From NCBI GenBank assembly GCA_021372585.1, contig JAJFUD010000025.1, forward strand, positions 1 to 61,689: 61,689 nucleotides of DNA. Direction: 5' to 3'. Under the pieces are notes generated by a model. It made no database searches. It was not told the origin of the DNA and worked only from the letters and a program-made list of their open reading frames with translations. The translations under genes were made by a program, and so were the position numbers. Numbering within the stretch: the stretch's first letter is position 1; each line of letters starts with the position of its first letter. Shown piece after piece: positions 51,331-61,336 of this stretch. The DNA is from a bacterium (GTDB lineage Bacteria; Caldisericota; Caldisericia; UBA6126).

Positions 51331-51687
51331 TTAGTGGCAACCACCGTCACTGTGACCAGAGCAAAGGCTGTCAGTCGATTGGAGATTGTTCTTCTCTAAC
51401 GCTTCAATGACTGAAACAAGGTTTCCCTGGGCACCGCAAATCACACCAATATTGGCTTCCTGCAATCTTTCGACAGCTCCCTGTCCTATGCCGCCGACTA
51501 CCAGTTTGTTGATCTGGTTCTGCTGCAAAAACACGGGTATCGAATGGCAATCACCATCCTGCAATGAGATGTTGCCTGTTTGGTTCGCTTTGCCTGCCTC
51601 CAGTTCAATGACGCAAAACTGCGTGGTATGTCCGAAATGTTGAGAAATCTCTTCTCCTTCGAGTGCAATAGCAATTCTTTCTTTCAT
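51331..51687 (-). CDS. NifX/NifB-like (dinitrogenase Fe-Mo cofactor family) protein
   Basis: The 118-residue protein begins IAIALEGEEISQHFGHTTQF, the typical start of this family, and has VVGGIGQGAVERLQEANIGV. The tail is Cys/His-rich (CSGHSDGGCH), which suggests metal or cluster binding. Such proteins accompany DUF134 regulators and hydrogenase or other metal-cluster genes in anaerobes without nitrogenase. The gene follows the DUF134 gene by 18 nt. Confidence 0.88.
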   Translation of the reverse strand: MKERIAIALEGEEISQHFGHTTQFCVIELEAGKANQTGNISLQDGDCHSIPVFLQQNQINKLVVGGIGQGAVERLQEANIGVICGAQGNLVSVIEALEKNNLQSTDSLCSGHSDGGCH

Positions 51688-51705
51688 GATTGTCTCCTTT
51701 TTTAT

Positions 51706-52074
51706 TTATGGTTTGCAGTTTTCATTGCTTTCTATTTTTGGACAGAACCGACACCGATAAGGACATTCTGGATTTTCGTTAAGCTTATAGTCCCCACCGT
51801 CAATTCGTAACGAACATCCGTCTACAAGTGACTGGGCGATTTTTTTTCTGGCGTCATTATAGATTCTCTGGACAGTGGTTCGTGCCACACTCATTCTTTC
51901 TGCGCATTCTTCCTGCATCAATCCTTCCAGATCGATCAGGCGAATCGTCTCGAATTCTTCTATACTCATGATGATCTCTTTGCCAGAGGAGTGCTGACTT
52001 AATGGACCATACCGGTCTTGGATCGGTTTGTAACAAACCTTCCTGCATTTCTTCGGTCTTGGCAAAATGACCAT
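51706..52074 (-). CDS. DUF134 (UPF0251) DNA-binding protein
   Basis: The 122-residue protein begins [12 protein letters not shown] and has a sigma-70-region-4-like HTH ([20 protein letters not shown]), both typical of UPF0251, and a C-terminal Cys cluster (CPYRCRFCP plus C near the end) able to bind an iron-sulfur cluster or zinc. It is a likely redox- or metal-responsive regulator. A symmetric operator lies right upstream. Confidence 0.88.
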
Positions 52075-52142: not shown

Positions 52143-52177
52143 ACCATAACAAATGATTGTATTAAGGAGAAATGAAG

Positions 52178-53350
52178 ATGAAGAAAAAAACAATCTTTTT
52201 AATAGCATTAATAGGCTATTTTTACTTGACTTTGGCTAACCAAGGTTTAGCGGAAACCTCACCCATCATTCCTTATAAAAACCACTGGATGTCTATTGCT
52301 TCGAATTCCCTACAATCTAATACCATACCATTTACCGCTATCGATAAAGAATCCACTTACCAGATAACCGTCACCAAAGCACTACCCGCTCCTTATAAAA
52401 GCAAGATTTGTTTGCATGATGCCTGCCTGCAAAAGACCATGATAACGGATAAGATTCTGGCTGAAACAAAAATGGACATGCAAGTCCGAGTCTATTCCGG
52501 GGAAGTTGTCCCGGGTATAGAGACGAGTTTCCGATATATTCTTGGTCCGTTAGAAGAATCCTCCCGTTCTGTATCCGGATCAGTGTACGTATATCCGGTG
52601 GAGAGGAAGGATATCCTCTTTAGGATTGATTCTAAAGAGGTTAAAGAGAACGATAGAGTTGAAATGATGGATGTAGGTCCTGTTATTGTCCAAAGTAGAA
52701 CCTATGTGCCTTTCCGTTATCTCAGTACGGTTTTTGGAGCCCAGGTCAGCTGGGAGATGAATCCAGTTACGAAACTCGTCAGCACGGTGACTTATAAAAT
52801 GGGAAGTTTCTCCCTGACGCTGAATATTGGGAGTTCCCTTTATACGATCCGGATTCAAAATGAAAAACAAGAAAAAACGATGGATGGGAAGCCATTTATA
52901 TCGAAAGGAAGGACGTTGGTTCCTTTACGGGTTATTTCCGAATCGCTTTGTTCACAAGTCGGGTGGGACCCGGTGACAAGGGAAGTTCATATCCAGTTTC
53001 CCAAAGAAGATTCCCCGGCAAATTACCAGGATTATTTTTACCAGGATACCACATCGGAAGCAGTACATGAGAGAATGGTGAATAACGAAGCGATGACTAT
53101 CCTTGATGTCAGGACGGAAAGCGACTTTCAAAAAGGACATATCCCGGGTGCCAAAAACATTCATCTCCTTTCCTTAAAAGATGTCTTGCCTTATCGGTCC
53201 GACATTAATCCCAATCTCCCGGTTATTGTGTACTGTAATACCGGTGTCGCCTCTGCATTTGCATGCGAGATTATCACGAATCTGGGGTATAAGAGTGTTT
53301 GGAATATCACCTCCGGCTTTGTCAGCTGGAAATACGATATAGAGAAGTAG
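52178..53350 (+). CDS. Secreted CuAO-N / rhodanese fusion
   Basis: The 390-residue protein has a signal peptide, a beta-domain, a CuAO-N module (about 175-275; YVPFRYLSTVFGAQVSWEM, LVPLRVISESL) and a C-terminal rhodanese domain (about 295-390) with active-site Cys in VYCNTGVAS and the AILDVR-like TILDVRTES. Exported rhodaneses handle thiosulfate, sulfane sulfur or cyanide. The ATG at 52178 gives eight bases from GGAG; 52172 is an alternative start. Its stop abuts hydE tail to tail. Confidence 0.9.
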   Translation: MKKKTIFLIALIGYFYLTLANQGLAETSPIIPYKNHWMSIASNSLQSNTIPFTAIDKESTYQITVTKALPAPYKSKICLHDACLQKTMITDKILAETKMDMQVRVYSGEVVPGIETSFRYILGPLEESSRSVSGSVYVYPVERKDILFRIDSKEVKENDRVEMMDVGPVIVQSRTYVPFRYLSTVFGAQVSWEMNPVTKLVSTVTYKMGSFSLTLNIGSSLYTIRIQNEKQEKTMDGKPFISKGRTLVPLRVISESLCSQVGWDPVTREVHIQFPKEDSPANYQDYFYQDTTSEAVHERMVNNEAMTILDVRTESDFQKGHIPGAKNIHLLSLKDVLPYRSDINPNLPVIVYCNTGVASAFACEIITNLGYKSVWNITSGFVSWKYDIEK

Positions 53351-54451
53351 TTAGCTCTTAGTACAAAAAGTGGTACCAGTCCCCTGTACCAAAAATTGGG
53401 AGGAAGCGGGATCACCTCGGTTAACCACTACTTTATATCCGATACGGTTGATGCGTTTCTCGATACAATGACGGCACTCTGCAGCTTCCTCTCCAGTGCA
53501 GATTTTATTGTCATAAAGGGCATATTTTTTACGAACCTCCACAGGGGATAGATTTGGCATGACGACATTGGCGCCTGCCAACAAACCGTACTCTCTGCCA
53601 AAGGAGTGGATGGTTCCTAATGCTGTCGTAGCTGGAATAAGTGACATCGGAAGTGTTAAACGCAATACCCCTATCATAAAGACTGTTAAATCCATCGTTC
53701 CGCTGTTTTCATTTGCAAATGGCGTCTCACAATGAGGGATAAAAGGTCCAATACCGACCATTTGAGGATGCAAATCAGCGATAAAAAGCATGTCTTCCGC
53801 TAAATTTTCTGGTGTTTGATACGGAGAGCCCACCATGAAGCCGGTACCAACTTGGTAGCCAATGCTGGCTAAATCCTGAAGACATCGTTTCCGGTTCTTT
53901 AGAGTGAGGGAAGAGGGATGTAGTTTTCCGTAGTGCTCTTCGTTAGCAGTTTCATGACGAAGCAGATAACGGTCTGCGCCAGCTTGGTAATAAGCCAGGT
54001 AACTCTCAAAAGGTTTCTCACCAATCGATAATGTAATGGCACAATCCGGGTAATTTTTTCGTATTGACCGTACAATACTCACGATTCTCTCCTCTGTGAA
54101 AAAGGGATCCTCGCCCCCTTGCAGGACGAAAGATCGAAATCCCAATTGATAGCCTGTTTCACAGCATTGTAAGATTTGTTCTTCAGATAACCGATACCGT
54201 GACACTTTCCGGTTACTACCACGAATCCCGCAATAATAGCAGTCATTTCGGCAATAATTTGTGAATTCAATCAATCCGCGCAGATAAACCGCATCTCCGT
54301 AATATAGTTTGCGAATCGCTCTCGCTCTTTCAAATAGATATGTTGCATCCTGGGGAGTGTGATCCCGAATTAAGGTGACCCAGTCTGCCTTCGACAGGTT
54401 TCGTTGTGTTTCCAATACATCAATCAAAGATTTGATATCTGTTGGTTTCAT
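53351..54451 (-). CDS. hydE: [FeFe]-hydrogenase maturase HydE
   Basis: The 366-residue radical SAM protein has CRNDCYYCGIRG (CX3CX2C), LQGGEDP and HydE-type motifs, plus the optional second cluster Cys in CTGEEAAECRHC. HydE processes the organometallic precursor of the H-cluster. The start overlaps hydF by 4 nt. The last ten residues are encoded by an IR-containing stretch (see repeat at 53371), so the natural end may have been altered. Confidence 0.94.
   Translation of the reverse strand: MKPTDIKSLIDVLETQRNLSKADWVTLIRDHTPQDATYLFERARAIRKLYYGDAVYLRGLIEFTNYCRNDCYYCGIRGSNRKVSRYRLSEEQILQCCETGYQLGFRSFVLQGGEDPFFTEERIVSIVRSIRKNYPDCAITLSIGEKPFESYLAYYQAGADRYLLRHETANEEHYGKLHPSSLTLKNRKRCLQDLASIGYQVGTGFMVGSPYQTPENLAEDMLFIADLHPQMVGIGPFIPHCETPFANENSGTMDLTVFMIGVLRLTLPMSLIPATTALGTIHSFGREYGLLAGANVVMPNLSPVEVRKKYALYDNKICTGEEAAECRHCIEKRINRIGYKVVVNRGDPASSQFLVQGTGTTFCTKS
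53371..53391. repeat. Short palindrome at the end of hydE
   Basis: TGGTAC (53371-53376) and GTACCA (53386-53391) flank CAGTCCCCT. The sequence forms part of the hydE C-terminal codons. It shares the 'AGTCCCC' flavour of the other two palindromes in the window. Confidence 0.35.
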
Positions 54452-55668
54452 ACTGTTACCATACTGCGCTGTAAAGGTTCGATCGCCCGTTCCAGGTGCC
54501 CGTTCATCTCTGCGATGGCAAGACCATAATTGGTGACCGGTATACCTTTTTCATGAATTCTGCTGATTCTGTTGATGACTTCTCGACGATTCAGCATACA
54601 GGAACCGCAGTGGATAACCAATTGGTACTCTTCCAGGTTGGGCGGAATCGTATGCCCAGCGACGATATCAGTCTGAACCTTTCGTTGCAGAAACTGGTTC
54701 AACCATCTGGGAAGCTTGACTCTTCCGATGTCATCTGTGGTGGGATGATGTGAACAAGCTTCCATAATCAGTACTTTGTCGTTTTCTTTCAAGCGACGTA
54801 TCTGCCTGGCTCCCTGGAGAAGTAGATCAAATCCCCCTCTCTGCCTGGCAAAAAGAATCGAGAAGCTTGTCAGAGGAAGGTCCTTGGCGGTGAGTCGGAA
54901 TACAGTTTCAAATGCTTGCGAATCGGTAATCAGGAGAGACGGTTTTCGAGAAAGATAGACATCAAGCATCGGTATTTGATCAGGTGTGATGGTGAGACTC
55001 AATCCACCCAAGTCGATAACTTCTCGGATAACCTGCTGCTGAGGTAATATGATGCGGCCTTTCGGAGCGCTTTTATCGATCGGGATGACCAAAACGATTA
55101 ATTCGCCAGGTCTGACCAATCCTTCAAGCAAAGGCTTTTCAATCCAGTCTCTATCTGGTAAAAGATGCATGAGTTTTTCTTTGAGGGCGTTTCTGATGAA
55201 GTCGTCAGAAGAAATTGAACTCAATTGGATAGAAGAATAGTGTTTTTCTTCAATCTCTTTAAGCAATTCTTGATCCGGTTTATATCTGTCTATCTGATTG
55301 AAAACCACTAAAAAAGGGATCTGTTTCTTTTGGAGTTGAAGAATCCAGTCTTCCTCCGGTTTTCCGTATTGCGAACCATTTACCAAAACCATAGCCACAT
55401 CGATACGATCCAAGATTTGAGAAGTTTTTTCCAAACGTTTGTTACCCAGAACCGTCTCGTCATTGTATCCGGCAGTATCATACAGCACAACAGAGCCAAG
55501 TGGTAAGAGCTCGATCGTTTTTTCGACCGGATCCGTTGTGGTTCCGGGATGTTCGGAAACGATAGAGATGGACTGGTTTGTCAGCCAGTTTATGAACGTA
55601 GATTTACCCACATTGGTTCTTCCGAAAATCCCGATATGCCAACGCATGCTTTTCACATTGGTAGTCAT
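54448..55668 (-). CDS. hydF: [FeFe]-hydrogenase maturation GTPase HydF
   Basis: The 406-residue protein has a GTPase domain (GRTNVGKSTFINWLTN, DTAGYND, FNQIDR), a dimerisation region and the C-terminal cluster motif with CSHH and HCGSC. HydF is the scaffold that carries the diiron subcluster to the hydrogenase. It starts 13 nt after hydG. Confidence 0.94.
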   Translation of the reverse strand: MTTNVKSMRWHIGIFGRTNVGKSTFINWLTNQSISIVSEHPGTTTDPVEKTIELLPLGSVVLYDTAGYNDETVLGNKRLEKTSQILDRIDVAMVLVNGSQYGKPEEDWILQLQKKQIPFLVVFNQIDRYKPDQELLKEIEEKHYSSIQLSSISSDDFIRNALKEKLMHLLPDRDWIEKPLLEGLVRPGELIVLVIPIDKSAPKGRIILPQQQVIREVIDLGGLSLTITPDQIPMLDVYLSRKPSLLITDSQAFETVFRLTAKDLPLTSFSILFARQRGGFDLLLQGARQIRRLKENDKVLIMEACSHHPTTDDIGRVKLPRWLNQFLQRKVQTDIVAGHTIPPNLEEYQLVIHCGSCMLNRREVINRISRIHEKGIPVTNYGLAIAEMNGHLERAIEPLQRSMVTV

Positions 55669-55681
55669 TCATGTTTCCTTT

Positions 55682-57148
55682 CTAAATATACAAATCACGT
55701 TCACCCTGGTGAATCCTGTTATAATATTCCATAGTTTTTTCCACCAATTGAGCAGGCATTTCTCGTTTAATCTCACCAATTTCTTGCTGGATCACGCTTT
55801 CTCCAATTCGTTTGGTTTCAGGAGAAGCAAAATCATCCAGCCATTCTCGGTAAGTCAGAACCGCATTCAGTTTACAAAAGCAGGATTCCTTACCGCTCTT
55901 TAATAAACTCATGATCTTATCACCAGTTCTGCCACAACGGTATCCTGCCGTACAGAAGGAGGTGATGTATCCAGATTCGCCTAATTCCCGGATGACTGCA
56001 TCCAGAGAGCGGGTATCACCCAGTTCGAATTGCTGCGCATCTGCATTTTGGGCTGCTTGTTTTTGATATCCCCCAATCTCAATGCAGGTTGAAGCATCTC
56101 GCTGGGTAACGATGGGGTACAGGCTTTTAATCATCGCTGGATGCTCTCTCGCTGTAATGATCATACCGGTATAAGGAATGGCCAATCTGGTTAAAATTAC
56201 AATCTTTTTAAAATCTGCATCAGATACTTGATAGGGACTCTGGGTGGAAATTGGCGCTTCCGCTGCATACTCCATTCTTGGGAAAGAAACGGTGTGAGGA
56301 CCGATGCCGAAACGGCATTCCAGCTCATGTGCATGGGAAAGTAGGCCCATTAATTCAAAATGCCAGTCGTACAAACCGAATAAAGCCCCGATGCCAACAT
56401 CGTCGATTCCCGCTTCCATAGCTCGGTGCATCGCGAATAATCGCCAGTTATAAAAACCTTTGATCGTGTTTTCAGGATGCATCAATCGATACGTTGCCTG
56501 GTGGTAAGTTTCCTGGAAAACTTGAAAAGTTCCGATGCCTCCAACGTTTAGTCGTTTCAAATCTTCTACCGTCATAGGAGCAGCGTTGATGTTGACTCGT
56601 CGAATCATCCCTTTCCCTTGGTTGGTTCTCACACTATACACGGTTTTCATGGATTCAAGTATGTAATCAATATCACTGGAAGGGTGCTCTCCGAAAACCA
56701 TGATAAGGCGCTTGTGACCGATGTTACCTGCTAATACATCAGTTTCATTGCGAATCTCATCTTGCGTCAACTGTTTTCTGGCTAATTGATGATTGTCTCT
56801 CCGAAAACCGCAATAAAGGCAGTTATTTATGCAATAACTACTGCAATACAAAGGGGCGAACATCACGACACGGTTGTCATACACTTTCTTTTTAATAACG
56901 GCAGCTGTATGGAACATCTCTTCCCATTTTTCCGGGTCTTGAATTTTCATCAAGGAAGCTAATTCAGGAAGGGACAGAGCCTGAATGGCTAAGGACTTTT
57001 GAAGAATGTCATGAAATGCGTTTTCGTTGGGAGCCTTCGCAGTCTGTAAAATCTGCTCAATTCCCTCATCGGAAAGAAACGGATGAAGCTTTTCTTCTTC
57101 GCTGGCTACATACTCACGTTGTTGGCTTTTGGTCACTGTCTGAATCAA
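55682..57148 (-). CDS. hydG: [FeFe]-hydrogenase maturase HydG with variant auxiliary-cluster motif
   Basis: HydG is a radical SAM tyrosine lyase that makes the Fe(CO)(CN) synthon. The SAM cluster motif is CINNCLYC. The auxiliary cluster, normally CTxCYR with a third Cys 22 residues later, reads CTAGYRCGRTG: codon 55945-55943 is Gly and a Cys lies three residues later (55936-55934); the third Cys is in CFC. A TTG at 57148 is favoured because GGGAGG ends six bases upstream; an ATG at 57172 is the alternative, and either overlaps the regulator gene. Confidence 0.93.
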   Translation of the reverse strand: MIQTVTKSQQREYVASEEEKLHPFLSDEGIEQILQTAKAPNENAFHDILQKSLAIQALSLPELASLMKIQDPEKWEEMFHTAAVIKKKVYDNRVVMFAPLYCSSYCINNCLYCGFRRDNHQLARKQLTQDEIRNETDVLAGNIGHKRLIMVFGEHPSSDIDYILESMKTVYSVRTNQGKGMIRRVNINAAPMTVEDLKRLNVGGIGTFQVFQETYHQATYRLMHPENTIKGFYNWRLFAMHRAMEAGIDDVGIGALFGLYDWHFELMGLLSHAHELECRFGIGPHTVSFPRMEYAAEAPISTQSPYQVSDADFKKIVILTRLAIPYTGMIITAREHPAMIKSLYPIVTQRDASTCIEIGGYQKQAAQNADAQQFELGDTRSLDAVIRELGESGYITSFCTAGYRCGRTGDKIMSLLKSGKESCFCKLNAVLTYREWLDDFASPETKRIGESVIQQEIGEIKREMPAQLVEKTMEYYNRIHQGERDLYI

Positions 57149-57449
57149 GATTGTCCTCCCATTTGCTGACATGCGATTTTACGCTGACATGGGGAACCAT
57201 TCCGAGTTTACCGGTTAAAGCGCCAATTTGGTCGATGGAACCTTCCACAATCACCGAAATAATGAAAATATGACGGGATTGATGGGGGATGCCCATTCGA
57301 CCGATGACGATCTCTCCATAATCGGACAGCAACTCATTAATTTTCTGAGCAGAATGTTGACGGTCATAGATGATAATGGAAATAACGCCAATTCGTTTCC
57401 TTGGGTTTTCCGTTGGATCGCCGACCTTGTCTTTCTCTTTCTCAGCCAT
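57114..57449 (-). CDS. TM1266-type hydrogenase system regulator
   Basis: The 111-residue protein has an ACT-like/iron-only hydrogenase regulator domain (IGVISIIIYDRQHSAQKINE, IVEGSIDQIGALTGKLG, VKSHVSK). It is the usual first gene of hyd clusters. GGGAAGGAA precedes the ATG. Its end contains the ribosome site of hydG. The 276 nt upstream of it (to 57725) show no gene; a promoter is expected there but none is clear. Confidence 0.9.
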   Translation of the reverse strand: MAEKEKDKVGDPTENPRKRIGVISIIIYDRQHSAQKINELLSDYGEIVIGRMGIPHQSRHIFIISVIVEGSIDQIGALTGKLGMVPHVSVKSHVSKWEDNLDSDSDQKPTT

Positions 57450-60007: not shown

Positions 60008-61336
60008 TTAAAAATCTACTCCAAAAGTCTTCGAGGATTCATCTAAAGATAATCTAGTTGAAACCTTTTTAGATAGTGTATCTTGAGTATGGATCTGGTC
60101 AAGCTCTTTCTTCTTCCGAATTTCATTCAGTTTGTTCTTCAGACGGCACACCTCTTCGTTTAATTGAAAGGGATCTAAGCTTTCATAGATTTGCTGACAA
60201 CGCTGTTTGTTTTCAAGAGGAATATGTGGATTTTCCATCACCCGTTCATAGGGTGTTCTGGGGCTATCCCAGCGTTTCATCACTTTCGCCCCTATCCTGA
60301 TCTTTTCTTGAAGCTGCATGACCGGTTGAAAATAGTTGGTATAGAGACGCAGTACCTGATACAGGGCATTGATGCATTGAACCTCTGCAAGAGTATCGTA
60401 CCTAGCATACCCTACATAACTACGTACGATAGACCAGTTTTTCTGCTCAATGTAGCAGGAGTCATTCTTGAAGCTTTTCCGATTTCGGGTGAAGGTAAGT
60501 TCTTCTTGCTGACAATACCGATACAGATGATCATTGATGAATTCCGAACCATTATCCGAATGTAAACCGAATATAGAGAAAGGGAAGCGCTTTCTTCCCT
60601 GAACGATCCCTTCATGAACAAACAACTGTGATTTATACAGAAAAGATACCGTCTCTGTCCATTGGGTGGAGACATCGCACATATTCAGACTGAAAGCAAA
60701 ACAACCCCTGGAATCTCCGCCTTCATGTCCTACGAGATCCATTTGGAGATAGCCTGGTAAGGTTTTATCCCACATAGCAAAGGTTTTCTCTTCAATCTCC
60801 TGCTTCAGTAATGATCCGGGACGTGTATGAGATATTCCCTTGATATGGTATCGCTTTCGCTCCTTCTGAAGATACCGGTATATAGTGGATACGCTCATTG
60901 TCTGGAGCTGCTTTTCTATTTCCTTCGTCCAAGGAGGCAATCCTTGCTCTTCCCATTCCTGCTTATGGTTTTCCTCAAACTGACAGCGTTTTTCTATTAA
61001 TTTGGGGATGATGCCGCGCAGGTGTTTATCACAGCAATAGTGCATCACTTTCCAGAAATATCTGAGCCAGGTAAAACTTACCTGGCTGTACAGGGAAATC
61101 CGTTTACGGATACTCTTTTTTCGTATATCTGCCTGAAGCGTTACTCTTCCACCTGGTATACGTATGACTTGCCGATTCATTGATAGACAATGTGCCAGGT
61201 AGGAACGATTCATAGCCAATACTTTTGAAGCATGATTTAGAATCATTGTCTTCTCTTTTTTGCTTGCCTTTTGATACTGAGATGCCATAATATGGATGTA
61301 GTTTTGACGTTCATGTAACATAAAGTTCACTAACAT
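60008..61336 (-). CDS. DDE integrase-core transposase
   Basis: The 442-residue transposase has an N-terminal HTH region, then an rve-type catalytic core with Asp200 (MDLVGHEGG), Asp261 (HSDNGSEF) and Glu297 (CYIEQKNW), the last two with 35 residues between them as in DD(35)E enzymes. The C-terminus is Lys-rich. It matches the family usually called simply 'integrase catalytic domain-containing protein'. AGGAGG lies before ATG 61336; GTG at 61330 has better spacing. Catalytic residues are intact, so it may be active. I could not find convincing terminal inverted repeats. Confidence 0.85.
   Translation of the reverse strand: MLVNFMLHERQNYIHIMASQYQKASKKEKTMILNHASKVLAMNRSYLAHCLSMNRQVIRIPGGRVTLQADIRKKSIRKRISLYSQVSFTWLRYFWKVMHYCCDKHLRGIIPKLIEKRCQFEENHKQEWEEQGLPPWTKEIEKQLQTMSVSTIYRYLQKERKRYHIKGISHTRPGSLLKQEIEEKTFAMWDKTLPGYLQMDLVGHEGGDSRGCFAFSLNMCDVSTQWTETVSFLYKSQLFVHEGIVQGRKRFPFSIFGLHSDNGSEFINDHLYRYCQQEELTFTRNRKSFKNDSCYIEQKNWSIVRSYVGYARYDTLAEVQCINALYQVLRLYTNYFQPVMQLQEKIRIGAKVMKRWDSPRTPYERVMENPHIPLENKQRCQQIYESLDPFQLNEEVCRLKNKLNEIRKKKELDQIHTQDTLSKKVSTRLSLDESSKTFGVDF

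Follow-up and report, generated by a model that had tools for sequence, protein, structure and literature searches.

The HydG encoded in the window (61,689 nucleotides of a Caldisericia contig, JAJFUD010000025.1) is a member of a large, already reported HydG variant in which one cysteine of the auxiliary-cluster motif lies three residues further on. HydG helps to build the iron catalyst of [FeFe]-hydrogenases by supplying its CO and CN− ligands. Beside the reported cysteine shift, the presumed tyrosine pocket of the same branch is also rebuilt, which was less to be expected.

The window protein was assigned to HydG on several features. Its TIGR03955 score is above the family cut-off (Table 1), it carries the radical SAM CX3CX2C motif, three C-terminal cysteines and the dangler-iron histidine, hydE and hydF lie beside it, and the genome encodes an [FeFe]-hydrogenase. 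It falls under the ThiH cut-off (TIGR02351, 228 versus 380 bits), and its best PDB matches are 4wcx and 4rtb. H265 of T. italicus HydG, the counterpart of H280, is reported to be the dangler-iron ligand in the 4WCX work; H280 and the radical SAM cysteines are conserved in the alignment in both the CX2C and the CX5C groups of HydG. The TM1266-family gene is followed by hydG, then by hydF and hydE. A broken or non-HydG protein was rejected on the family score, the intact frame and the gene cluster.

Table 1. Positions in the window of the hyd genes and of the HydG residues discussed
Feature	Position	Strand	Description and basis
hydG	55682..57172	minus	496 aa radical SAM [FeFe]-hydrogenase maturase; TIGR03955 464 bits, cut-off 312
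hydF	54448..55668	minus	GTPase maturase; TIGR03918 488 bits
hydE	53351..54451	minus	radical SAM maturase; motifs CX3CX2C and CX7CX2C; TIGR03956 577 bits
TM1266-family gene	57114..57449	minus	putative regulator, upstream of hydG; TIGR03959 102 bits
C114-x3-C118-x2-C121	56810..56833	minus	radical SAM cluster motif (CINNCLYC); alignment; invariant in CX2C and CX5C groups
H280	56333..56335	minus	aligned with T. italicus HydG H265
A341	56150..56152	minus	replaces phenol-binding Thr (ThiH T299); alignment
I348	56129..56131	minus	replaces phenolate-stabilising Arg (ThiH R306); alignment; register uncertain by one residue
D359	56096..56098	minus	replaces phenol-binding Ser (ThiH S318); alignment
T362	56087..56089	minus	replaces phenol-binding Ser (ThiH S321), hydroxyl retained; alignment
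C407-T-A-G410-Y-R-C413	55934..55954	minus	shifted auxiliary-cluster cysteines; codons and alignment
C407	55952-55954	minus	codon TGT; direct reading
G410	55943-55945	minus	codon GGA; direct reading
C413	55934-55936	minus	codon TGT; direct reading
C433	55874-55876	minus	codon TGT; third auxiliary-cluster Cys, retained; direct reading and alignment

The C-terminal part of the protein reads SFCTAGYRCGRTGDKIMSLLKSGKESCFCKLNA (minus-strand translation). The minus-strand codons TGT ACG GCA GGA TAC CGT TGT GGC encode C407-T-A-G410-Y-R-C413-G, continuing R-T-G, so that the auxiliary motif is CX5CX19C and the canonical CX2CX22C is absent. The sequence-only reading had named the protein HydG and described loss of the middle cysteine, a new cysteine three residues on and retention of the third, all of which the codons, the TIGR03955 match and the alignment bear out. 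It had also asked for a check of sequencing quality at the motif codons. CTAGYRC recurs in three more genomes of the same family, from two other genera (L004, 60% identity; L010, 62%; L013, 82% over a fragment), and in many unrelated genomes; HydG from another family of the same class has the usual CTGCYRL. An error of sequencing or assembly in the motif codons, which might be entertained for a 104-contig draft assembly, is thus excluded in practice and extremely improbable, given the identical residues in relatives from other genera and families.

The distribution of the shifted cysteine was followed in a profile search of 386 genomes, which gave about 100 HydG proteins that were aligned with named plasmid-borne HydG; one row without the C-terminal motif, L134_3, was not counted. 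Among the 105 aligned HydG, C407 and C433 are kept throughout, with Cys only at position 410 in 80, as the earlier reading had said is normal, only at 413 in 25, and at both or neither in none. One CX5C protein (L092) has Asp at position 410, which fits a position that has lost its ligand role, whereas 413 is Cys throughout. In a pattern search that accepted Cys at 410 as well, every hit had Gly at this position; the hits came from 14 of 23 genomes in one class and from 3/3 in a small phylum. The 25 CX5C proteins come from about 18 families and lie on one side of a single branch, with SH-aLRT support of 96 when columns 410 and 413 were kept out of the tree and of 91 when seven trait columns were removed; the trait changes once on the tree versus 22.4 times in shuffles. 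The rarity implied by the sequence-only reading does not hold, since the pattern occupies one tree branch, is already published for Clostridium autoethanogenum and accounts for roughly one in four of the sampled HydG, a share drawn from genomes sampled across families and not a species-weighted frequency. A survey of acetogenic clostridia published in 2022 (PMC9431212) gives CLAU_RS03260 as the plausible C. autoethanogenum HydG; its C-x(5)-C-x(19)-C motif is "supposed to coordinate the C-terminal Fe-S cluster". The survey cites Duffus et al. 2012 for variability of the C-terminal motif. The CX5C spacing was thus already known in print, and this protein was compared with the window HydG by its published motif, which has identical spacing. 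A search of genome contigs returned one named relative, and a search of viral contigs returned no HydG.

All four genomes of the window family encode one [FeFe]-hydrogenase (HydA) each, and a HydA match was found in 21 of the 22 other CX5C genomes, the one without (G124, HydG L095) being 95% complete. The window HydG is the sole HydG of its genome, and among those 22 other genomes only G290 also has a CX2C HydG that scores above the family cut-off, with one HydG of each kind (L076 and L127). The nearest match of the HydA of the window genome is A. woodii HydA1 (7Q4V, E=1e-189), whose L1, L2 and L3 motifs it shares. In L1 this HydA (L030 811-2661) reads TSCSPGW in place of TSCCPxW. This was considered as a change matching CX5C and rejected, because A. 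woodii HydA1 and genomes with CX2C HydG share TSCSPGW, which is common to most HydA seen here.

The window protein is very probably a functional HydG of the widespread CX5C subclass, in which C407, C413 and C433 would hold the auxiliary cluster and Fe(CO)(CN) would be made for HydE, HydF and HydA. The radical SAM site (C114, C118 and C121) is predicted to cleave tyrosine, and the auxiliary cluster to be bound by C407, C413 and C433 rather than by C407, C410 and C433, while H280 would still carry the dangler iron; this cluster would then supply HydE, HydF and the genome's one HydA with the Fe(CO)(CN) unit. C413 is thereby presumed to be a cluster ligand that replaces C410 in an otherwise ordinary cluster, and the enzyme to be active. 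An equivalent three-Cys cluster is favoured over changed chemistry, such as the rearranged synthon site suggested by the sequence-only reading, by the one-for-one cysteine exchange, the conserved H280 and the occurrence of [FeFe]-hydrogenase in almost all CX5C genomes. Alternatively, the cluster might sit on two cysteines (C407 and C433) and a non-Cys ligand, with C413 in another role and a chemically different synthon site. The columns that co-vary with the cysteine shift (S356 to T in 25/25, and P404 to T, S or V) indicate altered surroundings and speak for such an arrangement; even so we think it unlikely, given that Cys413 occurs in all proteins without Cys410 and never together with it. 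Our search found no structure or biochemistry of any CX5C HydG, both HydG in the PDB being CX2C, and an AlphaFold model made from two sequences (mean pLDDT 41) is of too low quality to judge cluster geometry.

The second departure lies at the presumed substrate site. In ThiH with tyrosine bound, the hydroxyls of T299, S318 and S321 hold the phenol oxygen and R306 stabilises the phenolate, and the authors describe these four residues as strictly conserved in HydG (PMC9046217). The ThiH-to-HydG residue mapping is supported by the pairs Y76/F105, E158/N196 and Y181/F219, which match substitutions given in the same paper. The Thr/Ser/Ser/Arg pocket so described is absent in the window HydG, which has A341, D359, T362 and I348 at these positions. 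Over 107 rows (L134_3 left out), Thr341 pairs with Ser359 in 65/65, and Ala341 (40 rows) or Cys341 (2 rows) pairs with Asp359 in 42/42, with no mixed cases. The Ala/Asp proteins all fall to one side of a single branch (SH-aLRT 99 in a tree from which the trait columns had been taken out); this class includes all the CX5C proteins together with 15 CX2C proteins, and [FeFe]-hydrogenase was found in 14/14 tested genomes of these CX2C members. The arginine is kept in 37 of the 42 Ala/Asp rows; members of the window family (for example L005 and L004) have Ile or Leu there, with Lys or Arg directly after, and a one-residue deletion nearby makes the register at this position uncertain by one.

The remaining substrate-site residues (Y109, N196, F105, F219 and R342) are unchanged, and on this ground the window HydG is still expected to be a tyrosine lyase. 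An Asp among the phenol ligands would suit a phenolate poorly; Asp359 may act as an H-bond acceptor for a neutral phenol or take the phenol proton. We propose tentatively, giving it slightly less than an even chance, that the clade of 42 among the 107 HydG binds the phenol in a manner unlike that of ThiH and the solved HydG, with Asp359 accepting an H-bond or proton, and that CX5C arose later inside this clade. With the root assumed to lie outside the Ala/Asp class, the pocket probably changed first and the cysteine shift followed. The Ala/Asp class may already have been described in subscription literature.

The pocket residues A341, I348 and D359 could also be taken as signs of a decayed or repurposed HydG that has lost hydrogenase maturation. 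We consider this very unlikely: the frame of 496 codons is intact, hydF and hydE are adjacent to what is the genome's single HydG gene, one HydA with L1–L3 is encoded, and the clade, which is both old and widespread, has retained hydrogenase.

Within the class of the window, the window family (L001) has a CX5C HydG of the Ala/Asp class and another family (L006–L009) has CX2C HydG with the Thr/Ser pair on a distant branch. This split of HydG within one class suggests horizontal transfer.

Both solved HydG structures represent one design, and the CX5C clade differs from them at both active sites; if the proposed phenol binding is correct, there would be two HydG designs, distinct at both. The moved-cysteine clade offers natural variants for asking which auxiliary-cluster ligands are needed. 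The coupled exchange of Thr/Ser for Ala/Asp contradicts the published statement of strict conservation (PMC9046217) and opens the proposed mode of phenolate binding to direct test.

HydG from Thermoanaerobacter italicus (4WCX) and from Carboxydothermus hydrogenoformans (4RTB) belong to the same family as the window HydG and resemble it in fold region, in SAM motif and in the His of the dangler iron but have the CX2CX22C motif and the Thr/Ser phenol pocket. ThiH (TcThiH, 7PD1) has a homologous radical SAM core, its R300 corresponding to R342, but has no auxiliary cluster and carries T299, S318 and R306 where the window HydG has A341, D359 and I348. The HydG of Peptoclostridium acidaminophilum DSM 3953 (WP_096325278.1, L138) is like the window protein (55.6% identity), with CTAGYRCGRTG and membership of the Ala/Asp class; it differs in having Lys at the Arg306 position and in being encoded on a megaplasmid, without adjacent hydE or hydF. 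According to the title of Zindel et al. 1988, P. acidaminophilum produces or uses H2; the hydrogenase activity of this organism was lost during purification.

Several further observations concern the neighbourhood of hydG. The window HydF contains CxHx45HCxxC, one residue under the CxHx46-53HCxxC of PMC6212873. A 442-residue frame at 60008-61336 appears transposase-like by eye and gave no Pfam match at E 0.001, and a single protein at 52172-53350 has Cu_amine_oxidN1 repeats fused to a rhodanese domain. Genes for two proteins, one Nitro_FeMo-Co and one DUF134 (51331-52074), adjoin the hyd genes; the P. acidaminophilum megaplasmid likewise has a DUF134 gene (L138 2231-2611), at a distance of about 5 kb from its hydG.
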